This document shows positions 49,308-64,000 of a stretch of 64,000 nucleotides of DNA, piece by piece. Source of the stretch: Flavobacteriales bacterium (GTDB lineage Bacteria; Bacteroidota; Bacteroidia; Flavobacteriales_G; Salibacteraceae); assembly GCA_018660685.1 (NCBI GenBank), contig JABJJW010000009.1:1-64000 (forward strand). The letters run 5' to 3'. The notes beneath the pieces are model-generated. The model did no database searches. It was not told the origin of the DNA and saw only the letters and a program-made list of their open reading frames with translations. The position numbers and the translations under genes were made by a program. The number at the start of each line of letters is the position of its first letter. The first letter of the stretch is position 1.

Positions 49308-50590
49308 AAAAGGCCCTCATACTCACGTACTACTGGCCGCCAGGATCCGGCCCCGGAGTTCAACGATGGTTGAAATTTTGTAAGTACTTACCAGAATTTG
49401 GTTGGGACACGAAGGTGATCACTGTGAACAATGGAAGCTATCCAAGTGTCGATTCAAGCTTAGAAAATGATATTCCTGAGGGACTAGAAATCCACAAAAC
49501 CAAAACCATTGAACCTTTCGCCATTTACAATGCGCTGCGCGGTAAAAAAGGCAAATCAGTTGAAGTTGCACTAGCTAGTGTAAAGGGTAAACAAAGTCCT
49601 TTTTCCAAGTTTGCTAACTACGTTCGTTCCAACTATTTCATCCCGGATGCTCGGGTTGGTTGGAATACATATTCCTTTCCTAAGGCCATAGAATTAATAA
49701 AGAAGGATAGACCCGATGTCATTATTACGACAGGTCCGCCACACAGCACACACTTGGTTGGGCAACGACTTCATAAAATGTTTGATATTCCTTGGGTAGC
49801 TGATTTTCGTGATCCTTGGACTACGATTTATTACAATCAATTTCTTCTTCGAACGGACTCATCAATAAGAAAGGATAAAGCTTTAGAAGATCTGGTCCTA
49901 TCAGAGGCGAGTGCCCTGGTCACGGCGACTCCAGGAATGAAAGCAGAATATGAGGAAAGGGCGAATTCTGTTCAATTCCTAACCAATGGTTTTGACCAAT
50001 CGGATTTCCCCGAAGATATTTTACCACGCGAAGAAACATTTACCATCTCGTATGTCGGAAACTTCAAACCGATTCAAAACATTGAGATATTGTGGCAAGC
50101 ACTGAAGGACTTGAGCACTGAAGGCGCAAGTCTAAAACTTCAAATTACTGGCAATGTGGCTGAAGAAGTATCGAAGTCAATTCTAACCCATGGATTGGAC
50201 CACATGTTGGAGGTATTACCCTTCGTTCCTCATCATGAATCAATCAAACGAATGATGAGTGCACACATGTTGCTTCTCCCAATTCCGCAAGATGCAAGTA
50301 GTAAACTCATTCTCACTGGTAAGATATTTGAGTATTTGGCCACGCGCCGTCCAATTCTATCCATTGGTCCACCACACGGAAATGCATCAAGCATTCTCGA
50401 TGATTGTGAAAAAGAGTCCATGATTGACTACAAAGATCTTGAAGGTCTGAAGATGCAGATCAAGACTCAGTTAGACTTATGGAGTTCCGGTCAATATGAG
50501 CCTATATCTGGAAATGATAATTATACGAAGTACAGCCGAAAAGGCGTTACTGAGTCGCTTGCTCAATTATTGAATACGCTGGTAGAATGA
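49304..50590 (+). CDS. glycosyltransferase (GT4-like)
   Basis: YWPPGSGPGVQRWLKFCKYLPEFGW, ADFRDPWT, GKIFEYLATRRPILSIG; TTG start. Confidence 0.88.
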   Translation: MKKALILTYYWPPGSGPGVQRWLKFCKYLPEFGWDTKVITVNNGSYPSVDSSLENDIPEGLEIHKTKTIEPFAIYNALRGKKGKSVEVALASVKGKQSPFSKFANYVRSNYFIPDARVGWNTYSFPKAIELIKKDRPDVIITTGPPHSTHLVGQRLHKMFDIPWVADFRDPWTTIYYNQFLLRTDSSIRKDKALEDLVLSEASALVTATPGMKAEYEERANSVQFLTNGFDQSDFPEDILPREETFTISYVGNFKPIQNIEILWQALKDLSTEGASLKLQITGNVAEEVSKSILTHGLDHMLEVLPFVPHHESIKRMMSAHMLLLPIPQDASSKLILTGKIFEYLATRRPILSIGPPHGNASSILDDCEKESMIDYKDLEGLKMQIKTQLDLWSSGQYEPISGNDNYTKYSRKGVTESLAQLLNTLVE

Positions 50591-51906
50591 GATGCGTTGT
50601 TATCGGTAGCAAAGAACTCGGATGTGTCATTGTCGATGAATTAGTTCGACAAAAACACAGCATTCCTCTCGTGATTACTCGCGACGATTCGCCTGGGATG
50701 GCATTGTGGCATAAAATGGGGCACCGATCGCTGAAAGAAGTGGCGACACGGCATGGCTTGAATGTTCTGGAAGGTGTCAAGGTTAATGACGACACAACAC
50801 TTAACGCTATTCGAGAAGCACGTCCCGATCTCATATTGTCTTGCTTCTGGAGCGATCTCTTTAAATCTGAAATTCTAATGATCCCTTCTCGAGGTGTATT
50901 TAACTTTCACACCGCATTTCTCCCAAAAAATCGCGGGTCAAGACCAATTCCTTGGGCGATGATTAACGGGGATGAGTTTACTGGAATCACCTTGCATCAA
51001 ATGCAATTAGGCGTTGATGACGGGCCAATTGTGGCCACCAAGAAAGTGGCCATCACCGACTCTGACACCGGCAAAACTATGTATGACAAAGTCATGCGCG
51101 AAGGCGTAAACTTGGTCACGGAAGTGATCGCGCTATTTGGAGAAGGCAAGGAGGTTTTGACACCACAAGAAGATGCTGATTCGACCTTCCATCTCCGAGG
51201 CGAACCATATGGTGGTCAATTCAACTACTTCTGGGATGAAACCAAAGTGGATCGTTTCAAACGGTCATTCATCTTCCCTCCCTTTCAGGCTCACAGAAAC
51301 CCACCGCAATCGAAGCAACTTAAGCAAGGCGTCTCCTTAATCGTGTCTTCAGAAAGATCAAGTGAATCATGGAATGAGCTAAGCGCTCAAAATCAATTCA
51401 CTCAAGATCTTCGTCCATATCAAATAGAGTCTGGTGGTGATTCAGCGATGCGTAAGGTCTTGAGGACTTGGAACCCAAAAGGCGGCGCTCAATTGTGTTA
51501 TTTTCCAACGCAGAAATCAGGCCTGGATGCGCATTATCCAATATTAGAATCCTTGATGCGGGGCGATTACCTGGCCAGCATTTCATCTCTTGAAACGTTA
51601 GACGGATCACCCGAAAGATGTCAACCTTTTCGATACGAGAACGGAATTCTTGAATTGCCTGTCAATTACGTTAATCCGTCAAAAGAAGAACTCCAATCTC
51701 ACCTCCACACAGCTCAGCGGTTCAGTGCCAAATATGATTGCACGTGCTACCTCCACATACTGTTAGATGAGCATTATGGCACGGATGATCACGAGCTGTT
51801 CACGAGAGAACTCTCACAACAAATTCAAAACAGCACGATATCATTAATGACTTATGGTGATGTTTGCGAAGAATTCAACACAGAATATGAAGACATCAGC
51901 GCTTGA
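50587..51906 (+). CDS. formyltransferase fused to an additional C-terminal domain
   Basis: VFNFHTAFLPKNRGSRPIPWAMINGDEFTGITLHQMQLGVDDGPIV (folate-dependent formyltransferase core); about 220-aa C-terminal extension. Confidence 0.82.
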   Translation: MRCVVIGSKELGCVIVDELVRQKHSIPLVITRDDSPGMALWHKMGHRSLKEVATRHGLNVLEGVKVNDDTTLNAIREARPDLILSCFWSDLFKSEILMIPSRGVFNFHTAFLPKNRGSRPIPWAMINGDEFTGITLHQMQLGVDDGPIVATKKVAITDSDTGKTMYDKVMREGVNLVTEVIALFGEGKEVLTPQEDADSTFHLRGEPYGGQFNYFWDETKVDRFKRSFIFPPFQAHRNPPQSKQLKQGVSLIVSSERSSESWNELSAQNQFTQDLRPYQIESGGDSAMRKVLRTWNPKGGAQLCYFPTQKSGLDAHYPILESLMRGDYLASISSLETLDGSPERCQPFRYENGILELPVNYVNPSKEELQSHLHTAQRFSAKYDCTCYLHILLDEHYGTDDHELFTRELSQQIQNSTISLMTYGDVCEEFNTEYEDISA

Positions 51907-52534
51907 GGCCTTTGATACTGTCCTCGTACTCGCACCACACACAGACGATGGTGAACTCGGCTGCGGCGGGACAATTCACAAACTAAAACAACTTGGAAAA
52001 AGGGTTGTTTATGCAGCATTCTCAACGTGTGAAGAGTCGGTGCCAGAAGGATTTCCGAAGGACGTTTTGACACATGAGGTTAAGGCGGCCACAAAAGAAT
52101 TAGGAATTCCGGAAGAGGACCTTATTATCCTCGACTATCAAGTCCGATACTTTCCACGGGATCGTCAAGCAATCCTCGAGGATATGGTCAAACTAAATAG
52201 AGAATTGAAACCGGACCTCGTTTTCTGTCCTTCATCATATGACATCCACCAAGACCATGGAACCATCAGCATGGAGGCCAAAAGGGCGTTTAAGAGCACC
52301 ACGCTACTTGGATATGAATTCATTTGGAATAATTTCCAGTTCTCATCACAGTCCTTCATTGAGCTAGATGAAGCCGATGTTGCAGCTAAAGTTGCGTCCA
52401 TGGAATGTTATAAGTCCCAATCAAAACGACTTTATGCGAAGGATAAGTTGATCAGAGGAATAGCAAATTATCGAGGGTTGCAAGCGCAAGTCGAATATGC
52501 TGAAGCTTTTGAAGTCATTCGTTGGATTATTTGA
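51887..52534 (+). CDS. PIG-L (LmbE-like) deacetylase
   Basis: VLAPHTDDGELGCGGTIHKLKQLGK, FCPSSYDIHQDHGTISMEAKRAF. Confidence 0.9.
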   Translation: MKTSALEAFDTVLVLAPHTDDGELGCGGTIHKLKQLGKRVVYAAFSTCEESVPEGFPKDVLTHEVKAATKELGIPEEDLIILDYQVRYFPRDRQAILEDMVKLNRELKPDLVFCPSSYDIHQDHGTISMEAKRAFKSTTLLGYEFIWNNFQFSSQSFIELDEADVAAKVASMECYKSQSKRLYAKDKLIRGIANYRGLQAQVEYAEAFEVIRWII

Positions 52535-53517
52535 TGGACACGCAGGCACATACCGTATTTCTGACTGGCACTGGCCGCTCGGGAACAAACATTTTAAAAA
52601 AGGTACTAGGCTCACACAGCAAAGCAGCATCACTGCCTTTCGAGTACAGATTCATCATTGACCCAGACGGCATCGTCGATTTTTACAATTCATATCCGGT
52701 TGTTTGGTCACCTTATCGTGCAGACAAGCAAATAAAAAGGCTCGAGTCATTTTTACTTGGTCTAGCTTCCCTTGATCTCGACAAAGAATCCAGAGCCGCG
52801 AAAGCATTATCTGCTGATCCGCAGGGCCTTGAGCTAACTCCACCTCCTTATAGTGGATGGGAGCTTGAAAAGTGGATTCCTGGATTTACAGAAGCTTCAA
52901 AACATTTGATCAATGACTTAAGCCAATTTGGATATTCTGCCGTCTGGCCCGGTTCCAAAGAAGGTGTGAATAGGAATGAGATGTATTTCCAAACGCCTAA
53001 GACGAAAGAAGAGCTCAAGCCAATAATTTCAGCTTATTTAAACTTCTGTCTCAACGCAATCGTCAATGCTCAGAATAAAGAAGTATTCATTGAAGACAAC
53101 ACTCACAACCTTCTTTTTGCCAATGATTTGCTGGAATTGGTTGATAATAGTAAAATGATTCACGTAATCCGAGATCCTCGGGACGTGGTAAGTTCGCTGA
53201 TTCAACAGCGTTGGGCACCAAAAGAATTAGAGAAAGCCATAGAATGGTACGGTGCTTTGATGGATCATTGGCTTGAAATTAGAAAGCATACGCCGAGTGA
53301 CAGGTTGCTTGAAATACGATTCGAAGACCTCATTCATCAAAGAGAGGAGACTTTGTCAGATGTATGCTCCTTTATCGGAATTGAAATCGAGCAGCCGCTT
53401 CGAGAAATTGATATGAGCAACCACCACATCGGACGTCATGAAAGCGATCTAAGCCTTGAGCAAATCAATTTGATGAACAATCGATTAGCTCGTATTATCG
53501 AAACGTATAATTATTGA
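52534..53517 (+). CDS. sulfotransferase family protein
   Basis: 5'-PSB loop FLTGTGRSGTNIL; 3'-PB HVIRDPRDVVSS. Confidence 0.85.
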   Translation: MDTQAHTVFLTGTGRSGTNILKKVLGSHSKAASLPFEYRFIIDPDGIVDFYNSYPVVWSPYRADKQIKRLESFLLGLASLDLDKESRAAKALSADPQGLELTPPPYSGWELEKWIPGFTEASKHLINDLSQFGYSAVWPGSKEGVNRNEMYFQTPKTKEELKPIISAYLNFCLNAIVNAQNKEVFIEDNTHNLLFANDLLELVDNSKMIHVIRDPRDVVSSLIQQRWAPKELEKAIEWYGALMDHWLEIRKHTPSDRLLEIRFEDLIHQREETLSDVCSFIGIEIEQPLREIDMSNHHIGRHESDLSLEQINLMNNRLARIIETYNY

Positions 53518-54389
53518 TCCTCCAACCAGACTGGAAGCTTCTCACCGCTGTGTCTGAGTAAGCCCTTTACCTGACTTAAGTCCTGTTGGTAGTATTGTTT
53601 CAGTTTCTGCTCTGTTTCTGTGCTGATGTCCGAATCAAAAGGCTTCCCATTTATTGCATGGTAGAAGGATGTCAACCATCGCTTGAGCTTTGGACTGCGA
53701 TTCCAGAAACCTTGAAATCTTCGAAACACAGAAATTCCGATTGACTGCAACTGCGGATTTTTGAAGTCAACGCTTTCATTGTCACGCGTGAACTCGAAGC
53801 TTTCGTAGAATCCAGAGGCGATTCCGAGCCGTTCTGAAATCGACATCATCATGGATTTCGAATTCTTGAGATCGTCACTAAAGTGGATGGTCATGCGAGC
53901 CCCAAAATGGTCTTTCCACGTTACAAGGTCCTCGAAATAGAGACCGTCAACCAAGCCATTGTATACAGACTTATTCAATCTCACGCCCTGTTCCAGACAC
54001 TTATCTACATACTCAGCAAAACTCTCTCCATCAGGAATCTCGAGTCCGCGCTTTTTGTATTTGTAGAATGAATGCAATCTTTTCACTGGGTCACGAAGCA
54101 GTAGAATGATCTTCAAATCTGTTCCTAAGTATTGGTCCAGATATTTGAGATTTCCCGCGATGTCATGAAAGTAGCGAGGCGTTGATTCGAGAATAATTTT
54201 TTCGCCTTGATGGTTAAAATGTTTCAGATAGTCGTCAAGCCTAACATTGTTCCAATCCTCAACCCGATTCCAAAAGAAGGTTTCCTTCACATCAGCTCCG
54301 CATACATCAGGATGTGCACTTAGGTAATTGTGCATGGACGTGGTGCCTGCTTTATTCACTCCTGCTATGATCAGATTTGGTAGAGCCAT
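53511..54389 (-). CDS. sulfotransferase (heparan-sulfotransferase-like)
   Basis: LIIAGVNKAGTTSMHNYLSAHPDV, IILLLRDPVKRLHSFYKY. Confidence 0.88.
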   Translation of the reverse strand: MALPNLIIAGVNKAGTTSMHNYLSAHPDVCGADVKETFFWNRVEDWNNVRLDDYLKHFNHQGEKIILESTPRYFHDIAGNLKYLDQYLGTDLKIILLLRDPVKRLHSFYKYKKRGLEIPDGESFAEYVDKCLEQGVRLNKSVYNGLVDGLYFEDLVTWKDHFGARMTIHFSDDLKNSKSMMMSISERLGIASGFYESFEFTRDNESVDFKNPQLQSIGISVFRRFQGFWNRSPKLKRWLTSFYHAINGKPFDSDISTETEQKLKQYYQQDLSQVKGLLRHSGEKLPVWLEDQ

Positions 54390-55882
54390 TACAGTTTTAT
54401 CCCCACCTTTTTCAAACTCAGCAAAACCATTTCTTTAAGATCCTCTGAAAATCGCATCCGCATCACGATAAAAACAAACATTACCAAGATTAGAGCTGAT
54501 CTCATTACAATATTGATCAAGGGATAGTCAAACTCGATTGGCACGAGCCATGCGACAAAGAAGATCAAACTCAACCAAATGAGTGCGTACAGATTATCCA
54601 CTTTGAATGGCTGCATTTTCAGCTTAACCCAAACGAATAGAAAGAGTAACAAATTGTTGGATAGAATGGAAATTGAAGTGGCCAGTGCAGCGCCAGTAAT
54701 ACCATAAATGGGTATGAAGTAGAGGTTTGTAATTATTGCTGTAACGACCAACAGCAAACGGATTGCCAATGAGTATCGATAATGATCCGAGACAAGCAGG
54801 ATTTCATTGTTTATACCGGTTGCAGAGCTAAATATCTTGGCCAATCCAATAAAGAAAACGACCCAAACTCCCTGTCTAAACACATCCCCATTTGGTATAA
54901 GGTCGAAGAGGTCTTGAATATTCAACCAAACGAGCGTAAAAATCAATCCTGAGGCTATGAATTGGTTCAAGCTAGTCCTGTGGTAGATGTCTCGAATGTT
55001 GGCCATGTTCCCATTTTTCCAAGAATTAGAAATTACAGGAACGGATATCTGTGTAATTGATTTCCGAGGAAGTTCGATGACATTTCCCAGGGCTAATGCA
55101 ATGGCGTAAATACCTGTCGCGCCAAGACCAGCCAATGAACTAATCATCCAGCTGTCAATTTTTATAATCATTGAGCCTGAGAGAACGTTGAGAATTGCGA
55201 ACAGACCATAAGAAAAGACCTCTCTGCGCTTCTCTTTATCGATAGCCTTGAAATTGGAATTAATGCGAACGGTGTTTCGACTCAAATACGATATGATCAT
55301 CGAAATGAATACTAGCGCGTAGGTTAGTATAAAGAGATAGACCAACCATTGCACGCCAAGATCGAGGTAGAAATAGACCAGGACCGTCGTGATGTAGCCA
55401 AGGCGAAGAAAAATTGACTCATAGAAATTGGAAATAGTGATGTTAAACTCTGAACGGAAATACGCTCGAATCAACTTCGCACCACTGATCATGAAAATGA
55501 GTGCAGGCAGCCAATCGATGTATTCTACAAGCAAAGGCGAGTTAGACGCCACCGTGCTTATTAGAAACGGTTTCAAGATATAAAACACGCCCAATCCAAG
55601 GACTGCTCCTAGACCTGGGATGAGCATTGAAAGCAGTTGAAAGGCACCCAACTGGTCAGGAGAGTTTTTAAAGTAGGGATGATACTTTACGTAGGTGTTT
55701 TGCACACCGAGCAGCATAAACGGAACAATGATACCGGACAAGTCAAGCAAGACCCGAATTAGGCCGATTTCTTCCGTAGCCAGATACTTTGGATAAACGA
55801 AAAGTGAGAGGACAAATCCAAGTACAATACCCAGATAAATCACCACGCTGCTTAATGCTCCCTCTCTACGTATTATTCCCAT
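54389..55882 (-). CDS. polysaccharide biosynthesis flippase (Wzx-like)
   Basis: About 12-14 TM helices; YLATEEIGLIRVLLDLSGIIVPFMLLGVQNTYVKY. Confidence 0.88.
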   Translation of the reverse strand: MGIIRREGALSSVVIYLGIVLGFVLSLFVYPKYLATEEIGLIRVLLDLSGIIVPFMLLGVQNTYVKYHPYFKNSPDQLGAFQLLSMLIPGLGAVLGLGVFYILKPFLISTVASNSPLLVEYIDWLPALIFMISGAKLIRAYFRSEFNITISNFYESIFLRLGYITTVLVYFYLDLGVQWLVYLFILTYALVFISMIISYLSRNTVRINSNFKAIDKEKRREVFSYGLFAILNVLSGSMIIKIDSWMISSLAGLGATGIYAIALALGNVIELPRKSITQISVPVISNSWKNGNMANIRDIYHRTSLNQFIASGLIFTLVWLNIQDLFDLIPNGDVFRQGVWVVFFIGLAKIFSSATGINNEILLVSDHYRYSLAIRLLLVVTAIITNLYFIPIYGITGAALATSISILSNNLLLFLFVWVKLKMQPFKVDNLYALIWLSLIFFVAWLVPIEFDYPLINIVMRSALILVMFVFIVMRMRFSEDLKEMVLLSLKKVGIKL

Positions 55883-55883
55883 T

Positions 55884-57149
55884 TTACTTGGATGCGTATT
55901 GCTGGAAAATTTCTTCCTGATTAATTGGTCGTATATCGTTATTCCTACAGAAATCTAACATCGCCCGATATACTTCGAGGTAACCGTCAAACTTCATGTT
56001 TGTGAAATATTTATTGTGCCATAAAACAGAGATGATCGCGTCCTCTTTATGCTTGTCCAAAAGCTCAACCAAGGTAGTTTGCAAACCTGATAAGTCCTGT
56101 TTCCTATACGTCCAGTTGCTTGTATCCATTACCATAAGCGGAACATGCAATGCCCTACATTGTTCTCCTCGATTGATGTCAAATGGTCGAATCGGAAGTG
56201 CGTAGTTATTTCTTAAACCAAATTCTTCCGCAAAGCCAAGAGAGAAATCAATCTCGAGAGGACTGGCGTCAACTTTTGAAAAATGCTCCGGAATTTGAAG
56301 CCTTAGGTAATGGTTCCTATTAGAAATTGTTTTGAATGGAAGAGCTTCTAATTCCGTTGAAAAGCTCTCAGAATTCACTGATTTATGGAGTCCTTGATGA
56401 AAACCGCGAGAGGCAATTTTTTGAATAATTGATTGAGTTCTCGAACTTGAGATTTGATAATCCCCGTTGCTGAGTGTTCTATTTTTTAGCGGCGTGGGAC
56501 GATTATTGGCGATCCAGAAGAACGTGCTTTTCAAATCATACTCATCATTAATGTCCATCATCTGATCCATGTTCATCCATCTGGGATTTCGCATGATTTC
56601 ACTCCACACGATTTGAAGCAGCCAATCCAATCGCCCCTTCTTCAAGGCGTAAAACCCATCTTTCGTGAAACTTCCATACAGACTATCGTTATCATGAGAC
56701 ACGAAAAGACGGGAAGGCTTGGTACCGACTTTTTTTGAATACTGTTCTTCAACAAATTCTCTGAATAGGTTGAGCACCTGATTCTCGGTGCAAACACCAA
56801 AGCGTGCTTGATAACTCTTCGCAAAAGGAAATCTTCCAAGATCGTCTTGGTCCACGGCTCCAACTTCTTGGAAGTAGTTGAGCATGTAAACGATGGTTGA
56901 AAGCCGGTCTATTGTGTCGTCTTCCCGATTTACGAAACCGTTTTCTCCTAAAATTTCATGATGAGAAAAACTGCGTTTCGAAAAATTATCATTGAAGCTA
57001 GATGAAACGAGATAGTTTCCAGATTCTGGGGTCAAGCCTACCTCCAAAGCATCCAATTCAACCGAATGATTTGCATTCAGCTGGTTGAGGCTCACTTCTA
57101 TAGCCTTTGAAAAGGCAGGATCAATTCGAGAATCAAATGATAGTTTCAA
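55884..57149 (-). CDS. NodB-like polysaccharide deacetylase-family protein (DUF7033-type, tentative)
   Basis: FVSHDNDSLYG, STFFWIANN, GFHQGLHKSVNS, ISVLWHNKYF. Confidence 0.72.
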   Translation of the reverse strand: MKLSFDSRIDPAFSKAIEVSLNQLNANHSVELDALEVGLTPESGNYLVSSSFNDNFSKRSFSHHEILGENGFVNREDDTIDRLSTIVYMLNYFQEVGAVDQDDLGRFPFAKSYQARFGVCTENQVLNLFREFVEEQYSKKVGTKPSRLFVSHDNDSLYGSFTKDGFYALKKGRLDWLLQIVWSEIMRNPRWMNMDQMMDINDEYDLKSTFFWIANNRPTPLKNRTLSNGDYQISSSRTQSIIQKIASRGFHQGLHKSVNSESFSTELEALPFKTISNRNHYLRLQIPEHFSKVDASPLEIDFSLGFAEEFGLRNNYALPIRPFDINRGEQCRALHVPLMVMDTSNWTYRKQDLSGLQTTLVELLDKHKEDAIISVLWHNKYFTNMKFDGYLEVYRAMLDFCRNNDIRPINQEEIFQQYASK

Positions 57150-58327
57150 TGAATGTCGACCTTTCTATTCTTACCGAGTACCAATTGTACTATTCGCAAA
57201 GGAAGTTCATAAATCATATAAATCACCCATGGCATGATGTCCTTGGAATCAAAGAATGCGTGAGCTTCAGAAGCAAGGCTCGATCGGACCATCGACCTCA
57301 GGCTCACATTCCGATTGAGAATGAAATTGTAGATGAAGTCCTCCACGAAATAATACCATTCACCTTGGTCAATCTTGTTGAGTTGAGGCGACGATGGTTT
57401 TTCTCCCCTCGCTGCGTCCAAAGTAATCATGGGAAGGTTGACACCAGCGTACTGAGCGAGCGAATGCCAGCTCCAAGATCTTGGATTCATTTCGATGACA
57501 TAAAAGTCATCTTCATACTTTTTGTACTCAATTTGAGCAATGCCTGAGTAGTTGAGCTCAGAAATGATCTTCTCGGAATAATCAACTAGCTTTTGGTCAA
57601 AAACGATTTCAGCCAGAGTCGCTTGACCTGCCTTAGGCGGGTATTGTCTCACCTTTCTTCCGGTGAAGCACCCCAACAATTTCCCATCCCAAGCTGCAAT
57701 ACCAGCAGTGAAGAGCTCGTCATCTCCCCCAGGAATGAATTCCTGAAGGATGTAAGGTGACAATTTAGACTCCAATTCCGCAATGAACTTGCTTGCTACC
57801 TGAGCGTTCTCGCAGAGTTTGACTTTGAATAATCCTTTCGAAAGGTTGTCGGTTGCTCTTCTGTTGTCTGGCTTAATGATAACCGGCCATGTAACCGTTC
57901 CATTTTCAACATCACTTTTCGAAAACTGCTTCGGCTGTGGAATGCTTATGTGATTTACGAAATCCGCAAACTGGAGCTTGTTCGAAATCTTATTTAGTAC
58001 CGTGACATCCGTTTCGTAAAGTGCTTTAAAGTCTGATAAGAGACTTTGATTCTCTGCAAGAAGCTGAACGTACTCATCATTTACAGGAAGTAGATATAGA
58101 TCATCATCTGAAAAATCAGATGCAATTTGAACAAGGCCTTGAACCAGTGCTTTGGGGTCCTTCCCTGGTTTGGGAAATTTGTATCGTTTGTATACGTACT
58201 TAGAATATTGGCCTGCCTTAGCCCAATGATGATCCACGGCAATAACTTTGCATCCAGCTTTCCCTAAGGATCGGATAGACGCTAAGCCGTTTCGGTTACA
58301 GTCTATTATGACAACTGTTGGCTTCAT
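57146..58327 (-). CDS. ATP-grasp ligase
   Basis: WPVIIKPDNR, YILQEFIPGGDDELF, GIAQIEYKKYEDDFYVIEMNPRSWSWHSL. Confidence 0.88.
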   Translation of the reverse strand: MKPTVVIIDCNRNGLASIRSLGKAGCKVIAVDHHWAKAGQYSKYVYKRYKFPKPGKDPKALVQGLVQIASDFSDDDLYLLPVNDEYVQLLAENQSLLSDFKALYETDVTVLNKISNKLQFADFVNHISIPQPKQFSKSDVENGTVTWPVIIKPDNRRATDNLSKGLFKVKLCENAQVASKFIAELESKLSPYILQEFIPGGDDELFTAGIAAWDGKLLGCFTGRKVRQYPPKAGQATLAEIVFDQKLVDYSEKIISELNYSGIAQIEYKKYEDDFYVIEMNPRSWSWHSLAQYAGVNLPMITLDAARGEKPSSPQLNKIDQGEWYYFVEDFIYNFILNRNVSLRSMVRSSLASEAHAFFDSKDIMPWVIYMIYELPLRIVQLVLGKNRKVDIH

Positions 58328-58855
58328 TTAATCCACTTGCATCGTGATCAATTTCCCATTCTCCACAATGCGTTCGTTCATCCCTGTAAGAGATCCTGAG
58401 TTTATGATTGAGATCAATCCCCGAATGAATGCACCATGGGAAACGATCAAAATGATCGGATTCATTTCATACTTCTCTAAAAAAAGCCTAATTCTTATCT
58501 CCAGTTGTTCAAACTCTCCTTTCAGATCACTAGCCAAAGGATCACCCAACCATGAATCTGACATCTCATCCAACATTTGAGTTTTTGGCAACCCTTCAAA
58601 TCTTCCAAAACTCATTTCGCTGACGAGGGGTTCGATGGAATAGTCCAAGCCTAATCGATCAGCAGTTTGTACCGCTCTTTTTAGTGGACTGACCAAAACC
58701 AAATCTGGTTTTACCTGTTCTAGCTCATCTGAAATACTTGCAATTAAGCTGTTATTCAAGGCATCCGACTCAAGCAGTTCGATGTCGGTGAGTCCTTGCA
58801 TCAAACCCTCATCGTTCCAAGATGTTCTTAAATGCCTAATGGCGTGGATGGTCAT
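58328..58855 (-). CDS. histidine phosphatase superfamily protein, variant RHL motif
   Basis: IRHLRTSWNDEGLMQG, LVSPLKRAVQTA, EMSFGRFEG, LIVSHGAFIRG. Confidence 0.88.
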   Translation of the reverse strand: MTIHAIRHLRTSWNDEGLMQGLTDIELLESDALNNSLIASISDELEQVKPDLVLVSPLKRAVQTADRLGLDYSIEPLVSEMSFGRFEGLPKTQMLDEMSDSWLGDPLASDLKGEFEQLEIRIRLFLEKYEMNPIILIVSHGAFIRGLISIINSGSLTGMNERIVENGKLITMQVD

Positions 58856-59646
58856 TATTTCAGGAAGAAGGTTTCGCTTCTCAGTCCTTGACGTTGGGCT
58901 TCAAGCAATGCAAGGTCTAGAGGGTTTACATTACCAAGGTTCACATTGGGTCCAACTTCGTTGATGAAATACATCTGAAGTGATGTAGCCGGTGCTTCAA
59001 AGATCAAGCGCTCTGGATCAGTTTGACTAATAATATCCGCTACAAGCCCAGTTCTTAGTTCTCCACTCGGTCTATAAATACCCGCTGTTCCACTATCCCT
59101 TCCCTCCGTAATTACATATTCCGCTCCTACCTCAAAAAGCATGTTGATTTCTTTGATCCACTCAGATGGAGGCATCACTTTCTCTTTGTCCTTTGACCCA
59201 ACCTCGGATAAAACTGTAAACTCAGACTTCAGATCATCTACCATTCTGCAGCGATCATCTATAGAAATATCCACTGTTCCGGTCGAGATTTCCAACATGT
59301 CAATTTTGTGCTTTCTTAAAAAATCTAGGTATTCGTTGAACTTATTTTGAGCGTAAAACTTCTCAAATAGAGTTCCTCCGAAATAGACCTGAATATCATG
59401 CTTGCGGTAGAGTTCGATTTTGGCATCCAAATTCGGAAGAATGTAAGCCACACCGACACCCAGCTTTGCCACATCTAAGAATATTCCGTAGTCCTCGAGA
59501 ACATTGGCAAGCTCTCCAGTACTTAACCTCGTGTCGTTGACAGCAGTAATTCCTGTCTTCCTTGGTTTTACTGTCCTGACCGGTGTATCTAGCATGATTA
59601 AGCGTTTTGACAAATATCCGAATAATCCAGCTCCAAACGTGCTCAA
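58855..59646 (-). CDS. comA: phosphosulfolactate synthase family protein (ComA/HSA32 family)
   Basis: DVAKLGVGVAYILPNLDAKIELYRKHDIQVYFGGTLFEKF, EISTGTVDIS, EVGSKDKE, ITEGRDSGTAGIY, IFEAPATSLQMYFINEVGPNVNLGNVNPLDLALLEAQRQGLRSETF; start could instead be the internal Met (59595). Confidence 0.92.
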   Translation of the reverse strand: MSTFGAGLFGYLSKRLIMLDTPVRTVKPRKTGITAVNDTRLSTGELANVLEDYGIFLDVAKLGVGVAYILPNLDAKIELYRKHDIQVYFGGTLFEKFYAQNKFNEYLDFLRKHKIDMLEISTGTVDISIDDRCRMVDDLKSEFTVLSEVGSKDKEKVMPPSEWIKEINMLFEVGAEYVITEGRDSGTAGIYRPSGELRTGLVADIISQTDPERLIFEAPATSLQMYFINEVGPNVNLGNVNPLDLALLEAQRQGLRSETFFLK

Positions 59647-59703
59647 AACAGTTAACTCAGATGAAAAATGATTGGGTATTTATAGGTTACTTTGCACCAT
59701 AGT

Positions 59704-61110
59704 ATGGAAACAGCTACCCGAAAAATGACTTTCGAAGAGGCGTTAGTGTCTGGTGGGGATGAACGTCTAGATTTGGATGAAAATGGGTTAAACAAATACT
59801 TCGTCAATCCAACCCAAGGCTCAGGAGTGTTCAATCGAGGGTCTTGCACTTGTTCATTCATAACGGAGGATGCAAAAATTCCTACCCATTCACTTTACGA
59901 AAAGCTTAATCAAAATCCAGACTACTCGGAGCTATACGAATCTCTGAGTTTAAGAATCAAGTCTGCGTTGGAGGAAGGCACCGAACCTTTCGAAGTTTAC
60001 TTGGCGCCAAGCGGCAGTGACCTTTGTTATTTTCCGCTGCTCTTTTCAGCGACCATTCAACCTGAAAAGCCTATTCTAAATGTAGTCACTTGCCCTGAGG
60101 AGTTAGGGTCGGGTTCTGTCCTTGCCTACAAAGGGAATTTTTTCTCCCAGAAAACTCAAATAGAGAAAGTGGAATTATCTGAGCCACTCAATAAGAGTAT
60201 TCCAATTGAGTTCATCTCTTTTCCAGCCCGTGATGAACATGGGGTCATCCTCGATCACAATGAACAAATCATTGAATGCATCACTGAACACCAAGAATCT
60301 CACAACGTAATCGTGAACTTGGTGATTGGGTCTAAGTCTGGAATTGAAGACAACCTATCCATAGTTGAAGAATGTCAGCACCTGAATGTTAAGTGGGTCG
60401 TAGACATCTGTCAGTTGAGGGTTTCAAGAGCTCTTATTCAGAGGCTACTGGCACTCAATTGCAGTCTTTTGGTGACGGGGTCAAAATTCTATCAAAGCCC
60501 TCCATTCTGCGGTGCGTTAATCGTACCCGGCAGTCTTCAAAAACAAATTGACGCATCAACTGCGGATCCAGAGGTGACCAAAGGGTTTGATCGTGTTTTC
60601 ACTTGCTTCGACTTTCCAAAGAATTCGATTTATAGACCGTACTTCCAAGAAAAGGGAAATCATGGACTCTTGCTTCGTTGGGAAGCTGCCCTGTATGAAT
60701 TTGAGGCTATTTCTGCCTACACGGAGAGTGAGGTTATTCGAATAGTTTCCAAATGGAACATTACTATTCAAGACCATATGATCTCTCGGCCAGATGTCTT
60801 TGAGCTCATGAGTGATCAGGACAAAACCAATAAGTCTATTATCTCCTTCCGAATTAAAAAAGAAGGAATTTATCTCAGTCATGAGGAATTAAAAAGCTTG
60901 TACAAGCGGCTTTGCCTCGAAGGCAGTAAATGGATGCCCCAATATGACACTGTCACAATTGGCCAACCGGTGGCATACACATCTGGTTCGTTCCTCCGAG
61001 TGGCCTTAGGATCATTCAATGTTCGTCAATTGATGAGCAAGGACGTTAATCTTGACGAAGACATACAAATCTTAGAGACTTTGGAGGCCATCCTACACGA
61101 GTCCGCTTAA
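59704..61110 (+). CDS. fold-type-I PLP-dependent enzyme, class V aminotransferase-like, function unknown
   Basis: YLAPSGSDLCYFPLLF, VKWVVDICQLR (PLP Asp), LLVTGSKFYQSPPFCGALIVPG (PLP Lys). ATG at 59704 preferred over the track's TTG at 59692. Confidence 0.75.
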   Translation: METATRKMTFEEALVSGGDERLDLDENGLNKYFVNPTQGSGVFNRGSCTCSFITEDAKIPTHSLYEKLNQNPDYSELYESLSLRIKSALEEGTEPFEVYLAPSGSDLCYFPLLFSATIQPEKPILNVVTCPEELGSGSVLAYKGNFFSQKTQIEKVELSEPLNKSIPIEFISFPARDEHGVILDHNEQIIECITEHQESHNVIVNLVIGSKSGIEDNLSIVEECQHLNVKWVVDICQLRVSRALIQRLLALNCSLLVTGSKFYQSPPFCGALIVPGSLQKQIDASTADPEVTKGFDRVFTCFDFPKNSIYRPYFQEKGNHGLLLRWEAALYEFEAISAYTESEVIRIVSKWNITIQDHMISRPDVFELMSDQDKTNKSIISFRIKKEGIYLSHEELKSLYKRLCLEGSKWMPQYDTVTIGQPVAYTSGSFLRVALGSFNVRQLMSKDVNLDEDIQILETLEAILHESA

Positions 61111-62345
61111 TGCGACTTCAATCAAATAGAGCATTAGAGCTATTCAACACAGCGCAGTCCGATGGATTGATCGAAGAATTGGATACAACCATCATTTTCT
61201 ATGACTTGGACATTCTTGAGCAGAGATTGAAAACTGTCCGCTCTGCATTTGGTCCTAGTTATAAACATAGTGTTGCGATCAAGTCGAACCCTTTGTCGAA
61301 GGTCCTTGAATACATCAGCAAAAATGAGAATGGATTAGAAGCGGCATCGTTCGAAGAGCTCTGTCTCGCCAATAATCAAGAACCTTCGTTTACGGTCTGG
61401 GATAGTCCGGTAAAAACGAAGGCAGAAATCATCGAAGCGGAAAAAATGGGTGGCGTACTGATCAACGCTGACAGCCTCGATGAACTTGAGTTGATTCTGG
61501 CACATACGGCTCAGTCAAAAATTGGACTAAGGATCAATCCGCAAGTGAATACAGGTAGCCATGGCTCCATGAGTGTGTCAGGTCAATATTCCAAGTTCGG
61601 TGAACCCATTGCGAATCGCGCCTCCATCATCGAAGCGATTTTAAGGCACCCCAAAAGAATAACGGCTCTACACGTCCATTCCAGCTCGCAAACAACCGAT
61701 TACGATCGACTTTGCAATGCCATTCGTTCTGTTGTGGATTTAGCCAATGAAATCAATCAAGTCTCTGCTGCTCAGATCGAGACCATTGACATAGGTGGTG
61801 GATTTCCCGTAAGCTATGAAGCCGCAAGGGATTTCGACATCGCAGACTATGCTGAAAAGTTAAAAGAAACCTGCCCTGAGCTCTGGAATGGAACGTATCA
61901 GGGAATCACCGAGTTTGGAAGATATTACCATGCCAATGCTGGTTTCACAGCAACCCGCATCGAAGGCTCAAAAGGAGATTCCGAGAATCAAACAATCATT
62001 ACGCATGCTGGTGCAGACCTCTTTTTGAGAGAGGCGTACAATCCTGGGGTGTGGCCTCATGAGTATTCCGTGATAAGAGCTGGTAACGAGGTTAAACAAA
62101 CGTTGATCAGAACAGACATTGGCGGTCCGCTATGTTTCGGAGGAGATTACATTCAAAAAGAAGTTCTGCTTCCAAAATGCCAGCAAGGCGACTGGTTATT
62201 TGTGCTCGATACTGGGGCAAATTCATTTGCGCTTTGGTCACGACATTGCAGCAGGTCTTTTCCAAAGGTCATTGGGTTCGATGGAAAAGCTCAAATATTC
62301 AAAAAGCGCGAATCCATTGAATCTATAATTGGGTTTTGGTCTTAA
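61110..62345 (+). CDS. fold-type-III PLP-dependent decarboxylase (DAP/ornithine decarboxylase-like)
   Basis: HSVAIKSNPLSKVLEYI, LHVHSSSQ, IDIGGGFPVSYEAA, EFGRYYHANAGF, DTGANSFALWSRHCSR; start overlaps previous stop (TAATG). Confidence 0.85.
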   Translation: MRLQSNRALELFNTAQSDGLIEELDTTIIFYDLDILEQRLKTVRSAFGPSYKHSVAIKSNPLSKVLEYISKNENGLEAASFEELCLANNQEPSFTVWDSPVKTKAEIIEAEKMGGVLINADSLDELELILAHTAQSKIGLRINPQVNTGSHGSMSVSGQYSKFGEPIANRASIIEAILRHPKRITALHVHSSSQTTDYDRLCNAIRSVVDLANEINQVSAAQIETIDIGGGFPVSYEAARDFDIADYAEKLKETCPELWNGTYQGITEFGRYYHANAGFTATRIEGSKGDSENQTIITHAGADLFLREAYNPGVWPHEYSVIRAGNEVKQTLIRTDIGGPLCFGGDYIQKEVLLPKCQQGDWLFVLDTGANSFALWSRHCSRSFPKVIGFDGKAQIFKKRESIESIIGFWS

Positions 62346-62360
62346 ACTCTTCAGGTTGAA

Positions 62361-64000
62361 ATGATCGGATATTCTGGCATATATCATAGAGACAAAAGCT
62401 GGTCGCCATCCGACGATGATCATTTGACAGAGATGATCAACCAGCTCCAAGGAACCTCGGCATTGGAGCCATTAATTACTGAGTTTGAAAGCCACGGAAG
62501 ATGTGCAATGAAGATTGCGTCAATCGACCCAAGGTCACCGATGATCACCAAAGAAAATGAGGTTCGAAAGTTGTGTTTGTTTGGCGAATTGTACCCTCAG
62601 TCCACGGCGAATTCCCTTTTGGAAGCAGTGCTTGCCGATGACAGTGAGAATTTGACTTCTAGTATTCAGGATTTGAACGGAGCATTCAATCTCATTGTCT
62701 ACGACAAAACCAATTCTCAAGTCAAGATATTCAGGGACATTGGAGGAGTAAAAGCTTGCTTCTACCATGACAATGGACAGGAGGTGATTTTTTCGTCGGG
62801 GCTCCGGTCGGTAGCAAAATCATCACTTTACCGAGATAAACAAGTGGACACAAAAGGGCTATGGCTCAACCTTGCTTACCCTGCACCTCCACAGCCGCTC
62901 ACCGCATTCAAAGACATTTCTTGTCTCGAACGAGGAAGCCGTCTTTCGATAAATTCCACGGTAACAACCGACCATTACTGGACTATTCCTTCGAGGGATA
63001 TTGATATAGGTATGGACTTCAACTACGCTGTAGAGCGAGTGCATTCGACATTAACTGATGCAACATCCGATCGTGTTCAAGGAATTCAGAATCTAGGATC
63101 AACGCTCAGTGGAGGGGTTGATTCTGCCTATCTCTCTGCTCTAGCGTTCCAGAATAATGAGCACACGGAGGCATACACCTTTAAGCTCGCAGGAGAAGAG
63201 TACAGCCAATTGAATGAAGATGATGTTGCCGCTTTAACTGCACGGAAGTATGGCATGAAACATCACATAAAATCCTTTGTGTATGATGACTTCATGGAAG
63301 ATTTCCAAACGCTCATCAAACTGTACGAGCAGCCTGGTATCTCCATCGGAGCCTACTATAGTATTGCGAAACTGGGGCATCAGCTTGGATACTCGCATGT
63401 TGTGAATGGACTGGCCGGAGATGAGCTCTTTGGGGGATTTCATTTCTTCAAGCATCTCAGCTATTGGCCTCTTTTACGACTTCTCTCCCCAGTTGCCTCG
63501 CTCGTTCCTTCCAATAGAACAAAAGGTATTGACAAGTTCATCAAAGTGGCTGGGGCGGGATCGATTGATGAGTATTACTCTCGTGCATTTGCTATCTATC
63601 TCGACAAGGAATTGAAGAACGTGTTCAACAACCTGTACTTCAGTGCTCTTGACGCTCAGCAAGAGCTGTACAATCCTCGGCGAGAACCATTCAAGGATAG
63701 CATTTCTGGGTTGATGCACTACATGTTTAGCAACTGTCCGAATCACCACATCTACAGGTTCGAATCATTTTCGAATCACTTCGGAATTCAACCGTTGTAT
63801 CCATTTCTGGATAATAATGTGATTGAGCATGCATTTAAAGTTCCTTCTCGTTTCAAAGTGAAGGGCCACAAACGCAAAATTGTTTTAAAACAGGCCGCGG
63901 CTCCGTATGTCGTGCAACCCGCACTCACTGAAAACAAACGCGGCGTCGGAGCTCCAGTAAATAGCTGGATGAATACCCATCTCAAAGACATCAAAGAGGA
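62361..64000 (+). CDS. asparagine synthetase-like ATP-dependent amide ligase lacking the glutaminase Cys; partial (runs off window)
   Basis: PP-loop STLSGGVDSAYLSAL, GLAGDELFGGFHFF, YPFLDNNVIEHAFKVPSRFK; N-terminus MIGYSGIYH instead of MCGI; upstream in-frame TAA at 62343 excludes a longer start. Confidence 0.88.
   Translation, partial: MIGYSGIYHRDKSWSPSDDDHLTEMINQLQGTSALEPLITEFESHGRCAMKIASIDPRSPMITKENEVRKLCLFGELYPQSTANSLLEAVLADDSENLTSSIQDLNGAFNLIVYDKTNSQVKIFRDIGGVKACFYHDNGQEVIFSSGLRSVAKSSLYRDKQVDTKGLWLNLAYPAPPQPLTAFKDISCLERGSRLSINSTVTTDHYWTIPSRDIDIGMDFNYAVERVHSTLTDATSDRVQGIQNLGSTLSGGVDSAYLSALAFQNNEHTEAYTFKLAGEEYSQLNEDDVAALTARKYGMKHHIKSFVYDDFMEDFQTLIKLYEQPGISIGAYYSIAKLGHQLGYSHVVNGLAGDELFGGFHFFKHLSYWPLLRLLSPVASLVPSNRTKGIDKFIKVAGAGSIDEYYSRAFAIYLDKELKNVFNNLYFSALDAQQELYNPRREPFKDSISGLMHYMFSNCPNHHIYRFESFSNHFGIQPLYPFLDNNVIEHAFKVPSRFKVKGHKRKIVLKQAAAPYVVQPALTENKRGVGAPVNSWMNTHLKDIKE

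Follow-up and report, generated by a model that had tools for sequence, protein, structure and literature searches.

A candidate acid-making and ligating gene cassette with a ComA-family enzyme in a surface-glycan locus of a Flavobacteriales bacterium

Six enzyme genes on two divergent strands lie near the end of the first 64,000 nucleotides of contig JABJJW010000009.1 (hereafter, the window) of a Flavobacteriales bacterium (assembly GCA_018660685.1, 2.58 Mb in 28 contigs, the contig itself measuring 99.6 kb). The original prediction, made from the sequence of this stretch, joined all six in a single pathway of sulfonate biosynthesis and ligation. We find that they form two modules: module A on the minus strand, consisting of a ComA-family phosphosulfolactate synthase, a histidine phosphatase and an ATP-grasp ligase, and module B on the plus strand, consisting of an enzyme predicted to depend on pyridoxal phosphate (PLP) that we denote PLP1, a PLP-dependent decarboxylase and an AsnB-like ligase. 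Tentatively, and with a confidence that falls somewhat short of even, we read the minus-strand genes as an accessory cassette of a surface-glycan locus that would make an acid and ligate it, placing sulfolactate on an amino sugar. More doubtful is the fuller version of this reading, in which the cassette is self-contained, producing sulfolactate from phosphoenolpyruvate (PEP) and sulfite and linking it to the nitrogen of the amino sugar, with a C-sulfonate where an aminoacyl or acetyl group would normally be.

In the proposed mechanism, ComA would join sulfite and PEP into (2R)-phospho-3-sulfolactate, from which the histidine phosphatase, acting in the stead of ComB, would release 3-sulfolactate. 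A VimE-like deacetylase encoded next to the ligase would expose an amine on an amino sugar, the ATP-grasp enzyme would activate the carboxylate of sulfolactate as an acyl phosphate and form an amide with the freed amine, and a flippase would then export the sulfonate-bearing glycan unit. Gene content, gene order, overlaps, motifs, the lack of ComB and ComC matches and the differing arrangement in sister species form the basis from which we infer the substrates, the products and the amine acceptor.

ComA, the phosphatase and the ligase

The window ComA matches PF02679 with 262.1 bits against a gathering cut-off of 25.2, in agreement with its original family assignment. It is 64-72% identical to the ComAs of the three other cassettes that we identified (genomes G004, G005 and L074; G000 is the window's own genome) and 36-47% identical to the core ComA of Bacteroidia. 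The core Bacteroidia proteins (35 copies), YitD of Bacillus subtilis and ComA of M. jannaschii share 43 positions, all of which are kept in the four cassette ComAs, including K61, E95, E119, E148, K152, E181, R183, E217, R252 and R256. The cassette enzyme would likely use PEP and sulfite. Each of the three cassette genomes searched encodes two PF01507 proteins, one CysD-sized and the other of only ~230 aa; the size of the short one suggests a phosphoadenylylsulfate (PAPS) reductase and hence a source of sulfite.

The histidine phosphatase matches PF00300 with 84.3 bits and, apart from the replacement of RHG by RHL, keeps R7 H8, R60, E80 and H140 in all four cassettes, where the gene order is also kept, in line with its predicted role in the step after ComA. 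Its score of 71.8 bits does not reach the cut-off of 162.9 for the CobC alpha-ribazole phosphatase (TIGR03162). A search of three cassette genomes (G000, G004 and G005) returned neither ComB (PF04029) nor ComC (PF02615), both part of the coenzyme M pathway; the absence of ComC had already been noted for the window. Among 199 relatives, ComA and ComB occur together in 149, ComA alone in eight, ComB alone in four and neither in 38 (Fisher p = 2e-28, a value that overstates independence given that the genomes are related). The eight ComA-only genomes include three with the cassette, which fits the replacement of ComB; in the cassette, the histidine phosphatase probably takes its place.

Most of the Bacteroidia sampled possess both the ComA and ComB families (for example, G013, G057 and G095), and the ComC family is present only in some of those checked. 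In genus g1, that of the window, ComB matches are found in none of 13 genomes and ComA in only three, unlike most of the class, although some of these genomes are incomplete. The core ComA gene is immediately preceded by an open reading frame (ORF) of ~470 aa in L004, L007, L012, L016, L017, L020, L029, L037 and L039; in the three cases scanned against Pfam (L004, L017 and G057 as L124), the upstream ORF encodes a tetratricopeptide repeat protein. A shikimate-dehydrogenase-like gene is located near the core ComA in L007 and L012.

The third enzyme of module A was predicted to be an ATP-grasp ligase, and both alignment and structural modeling uphold an ATP-grasp ligase fold with Mg-ATP residues, among which E267, E279, N281 and K152 are invariant in six relatives. 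The AlphaFold 2 model, with a predicted local distance difference test (pLDDT) score of 80, has as its best match in the PDB PylC (4ffl), followed by fold neighbors that include 2pn1, a carbamoyl-phosphate-synthase-like protein, biotin carboxylases and an L-amino acid ligase (3vot). PylC, the nearest of these folds, is an amide ligase. The ATP-grasps of the other cassettes are only 46-49% identical to that of the window.

The glycan setting of the cassette is upheld by its neighborhood: in both the window and L074, 4 bp are common to the ATP-grasp and deacetylase genes, and in the window a flippase and a sulfotransferase belong to the same gene string. In G004 and G005, a more VimE-like deacetylase (125-143 bits against NF053580) lies near the trio of module A genes, together with flippase, Wzz/Wzy-like and Gfo/Idh-type genes. 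G137 and G410 have more distantly related ATP-grasps right next to deacetylases of this family, accompanied by a PHP phosphoesterase, and in G402 an ATP-grasp is found near a deacetylase relative; GNAT N-acyltransferases are adjacent to or near deacetylase relatives in G057, G261, G068, G007 and G009. By analogy with VimE and VimA, the ATP-grasp enzyme would acylate the amine that the deacetylase exposes. At another locus (G000:C15, L154:9230-11411), the genus already possesses a VimE/FemAB-like pair, so the window locus is an additional system. The pair at L154:9230-11411 is found near a protein with a type A sorting domain of the type IX secretion system, and a linking-sugar pathway may therefore exist in the genus as well. 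Elsewhere in the glycan region of the window (50587-52534), a formyltransferase-like gene and a PIG-L/LmbE-type deacetylase gene overlap, possibly a second deacetylate-and-acylate pair.

Two modules and their distribution

All six enzyme ORFs are located where the original prediction had placed them, the family matches agree and catalytic motifs are retained wherever they can be checked (Table 1). The minus-strand unit was thought to end at 57146, but the string continues, with junctions of -1, 0, -4, +1 and -1 bp from ComA through the phosphatase, ATP-grasp, deacetylase and flippase to the sulfotransferase. On the plus strand, the junctions from PLP1 through the decarboxylase to the AsnB-like gene are -1 and +15 bp. 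The divergent starts had been put only tens of bp apart. However, the ComA start common to the relatives is ATG 59595, not TTG 59646, and the PLP1 ORF, which opens at 59692 or 59704, has its conserved start at 59704 or 59725, so the gap is ~108-129 bp. No Bacteroidetes-type promoter (TAnnTTTG) was found in this gap.

Table 1. Genes of the two modules and of the adjoining minus-strand string, in window coordinates
Feature	Coordinates	Strand	Evidence
ComA-family phosphosulfolactate synthase	58855..59595 (ORF extendable to TTG 59646)	-	PF02679; ATG 59595 conserved
Histidine phosphatase, branch 1	58328..58855	-	PF00300, 84 bits; RHL replaces RHG
ATP-grasp ligase, proposed sulfolactate-amine ligase	57146..58327	-	ATP-grasp PF15632/PF02786; fold model
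NodB/VimE-like polysaccharide or nucleotide-sugar deacetylase, DUF7033-type	55884..57149	-	Weak VimE NF053580 match
Wzx-type flippase, same minus-strand string	54389..55882	-	PF01943
Sulfotransferase, same minus-strand string	53511..54389	-	Gene string
PLP1, unnamed PLP enzyme family, probably fold type I, motif TGSKFYQSPPFCGAL	59704..61110	+	Fold matches, low-confidence model
Fold-III PLP decarboxylase, diaminopimelate-decarboxylase-like, PLP1 partner	61110..62345	+	PF02784/PF00278
AsnB-like ligase without glutaminase Cys	62361..64142 (window end at 64000)	+	PF00733, 128 bits

The order ComA-phosphatase-ATP-grasp is kept in all four carriers, which represent two kinds of locus, all of them glycan loci. 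The window and L074 (CAKZPI010000041.1) have the trio next to PLP1 and the decarboxylase; G004 and G005 carry it on a contig other than that of PLP1, and G005 has no decarboxylase adjoining PLP1. PLP1 is present in 13/13 genomes of the genus, three of which have ComA, and in three other genomes of the family. In the class sample, it is found in G239 and in four genomes of another family, mostly with the decarboxylase after it, and in other families it occurs without a linked ComA. AsnB-like homologs, 52-53% identical to that of the window, are found beside PLP1 and the decarboxylase in the sister species G007 and G009, both of which lack ComA. This distribution argues for two modules rather than for one six-enzyme pathway: the expected linkage of ComA with the five other families extends to the phosphatase and the ATP-grasp (4/4) but not to PLP1, which lies on a different contig in G004 and G005. 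PLP1, the decarboxylase and the AsnB-like ligase look like a separate, older module.

G007 and G009 share synteny with the window starting at nadC and reaching at least the PIG-L-type gene, and the trio is missing from both. Between PLP1 and the deacetylase, they carry, among other genes, a sulfotransferase and a FemAB/VimA-like GNAT, this N-acyltransferase adjoining the deacetylase at the place of module A. The adjacency of the two modules may be the outcome of insertion at a common, variable glycan locus next to nadC.

Within module B, PLP1 has no Pfam or NCBIfam match, and a contig search with it as the sole query returned no relative. The best PDB matches of its poor model (pLDDT 50, built from two sequences) are fold-type-I PLP enzymes, and only this fold class is used here, with caution. 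The decarboxylase has LysA and BtrK among its PDB relatives; K58, H190, C342 and D346 are invariant, the PLP lysine and the catalytic Cys being kept. With 188.8 bits against the 297.9 of the diaminopimelate decarboxylase equivalog (TIGR01048), it is a relative and not an ortholog. The AsnB-like protein scores below all NCBIfam cut-offs. It starts with MIGYSGI and thus lacks the Cys2 nucleophile of glutamine-dependent asparagine synthetases, and it keeps the SGGVDS loop, so its description as glutaminase-less was correct. One plausible reading is that the AsnB-like ligase would join an amine to an acid. In L138:7553-11517 (G248), a sugar-transfer-associated ATP-grasp gene and one resembling octopine dehydrogenase come after a PLP1-like gene, possibly another amine-ligation cluster.

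Alternative explanations

Several observations weigh against the assignment of sulfolactate to a glycan, in addition to the relatedness of the 199 genomes compared. The cassette is known from only four genomes, and the absence of ComB is established for three of them (not L074). About ten positions that are otherwise family-wide are altered in some or all cassette ComAs, including T66->V/S, K221->T/S/P, E184->D, T250->A and G40->R (in three of the four), and the four proteins form a fully supported clade apart from the 35 core copies, on a branch so long (2.37) that its placement in the tree is unsure. The archaeal ComA equivalog (TIGR03849, a model made for archaeal ComA) is not reached, at 203.7 bits against a cut-off of 280. 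ATP-grasp folds also cover carboxylases and other ligases. The window deacetylase, at 38.8 bits against the 440 required by the VimE equivalog NF053580, is a weak VimE relative, and the neighbors of its family are often sulfotransferases, glycosyltransferases or aminotransferases. In the literature searched, we found no sulfolactyl glycan, nor a publication that would decide the matter for sulfolactyl or sulfoacetamido glycans, ATP-grasp acylation of O-antigen sugars or ComA in Bacteroidota. The altered positions and the long branch imply that the substrates may be other than PEP and sulfite. The cassette ComA would then join PEP, or some other enol phosphate, with a different nucleophile, and the ATP-grasp would ligate the resulting three-carbon acid, which would carry no sulfonate. 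We regard this explanation as unlikely, since none of the 43 universally conserved positions has changed. The separate long-branch clade also led us to reject a recent origin of the cassette gene as a copy of the class's core ComA.

The same enzymes could serve a small molecule, with sulfolactate coupled to an amine such as an amino acid and exported as a sulfonated amide or osmolyte. Sulfolactate is a known free metabolite, and PylC and the L-amino acid ligase, both among the ATP-grasp fold matches, act on free amino acids; still, all four copies are in glycan loci beside a deacetylase gene and export or glycan genes, and the overlap with the deacetylase would be left without a role, which makes this somewhat unlikely. 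The single pathway originally proposed, in which PLP1 and the decarboxylase convert the sulfonate to cysteate- or taurine-like products and both ligases act on it, draws on the adjacency of the modules in the window and L074. Its cysteate/taurine branch has no linkage support beyond that adjacency, and the ubiquity of PLP1 in the genus and its presence in other families away from ComA, the separate contigs of G004 and G005, the missing decarboxylase neighbor in G005 and the ComA-less AsnB-like genes of G007 and G009 make it quite improbable. Finally, glycan loci are variable and rich in genes, and the trio might be an unrelated mixture, with the phosphatase and ATP-grasp engaged in ordinary sugar metabolism and ComA as a passenger. 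This we consider very unlikely, since order and tight packing are kept in four genomes despite the low identity of the ATP-grasps and the differing loci.

Comparison with known systems

The ComA-ComB system of coenzyme M and sulfolactate synthesis (M. jannaschii ComA, 1qwg; B. subtilis YitD, 1u83) shares with the cassette a homologous ComA followed by a phosphatase; the cassette differs in the lack of a ComB or ComC match in the three genomes, the presence of a histidine phosphatase and an ATP-grasp, and the glycan setting. If the sulfolactate reading is correct, ComA would gain a role in surface-glycan chemistry. The cassette also draws attention to the near-core ComA-ComB pair of Bacteroidia, to which, to our knowledge, no role has been assigned.

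The ATP-grasp resembles PylC and the L-amino acid ligase in overall fold and Mg-ATP motif, at ~16-17% identity. In module B, the AsnB-like protein is presumably comparable to the glutaminase-less ligases of the beta-lactam synthetase and lasso-cyclase type, in which Cys2 is missing and SGGVDS is kept, but differs in its linkage to PLP1 and a decarboxylase.

If the proposed ligation takes place, a stable, negatively charged sulfonate would be added to the modifications known for amino sugars, at a deacetylase-coupled acylation site whose acyl-making genes vary between sister species. The closest parallel is the Wbp/Vim linking-sugar pathway of P. gingivalis and T. forsythia, for which deacetylation by VimE and subsequent attachment of Ser or Gly to the amine by VimA have been proposed; for P. 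gingivalis, the proposal is removal of an acetyl group by VimE and addition of serine by VimA (PMC7468200). Both systems combine a deacetylase, in the window only distantly VimE-related, with an enzyme that could N-acylate the amine so released, and both have a flippase and an AsnB-like gene in the neighborhood. In contrast to that pathway, the cassette has an ATP-grasp and acid-making enzymes in the place of VimA, and its deacetylase in the window is a weak relative of VimE. By this analogy, the cassette would be chemically equivalent to the VimE/VimA pair, with a sulfonated hydroxy acid replacing the amino acid.

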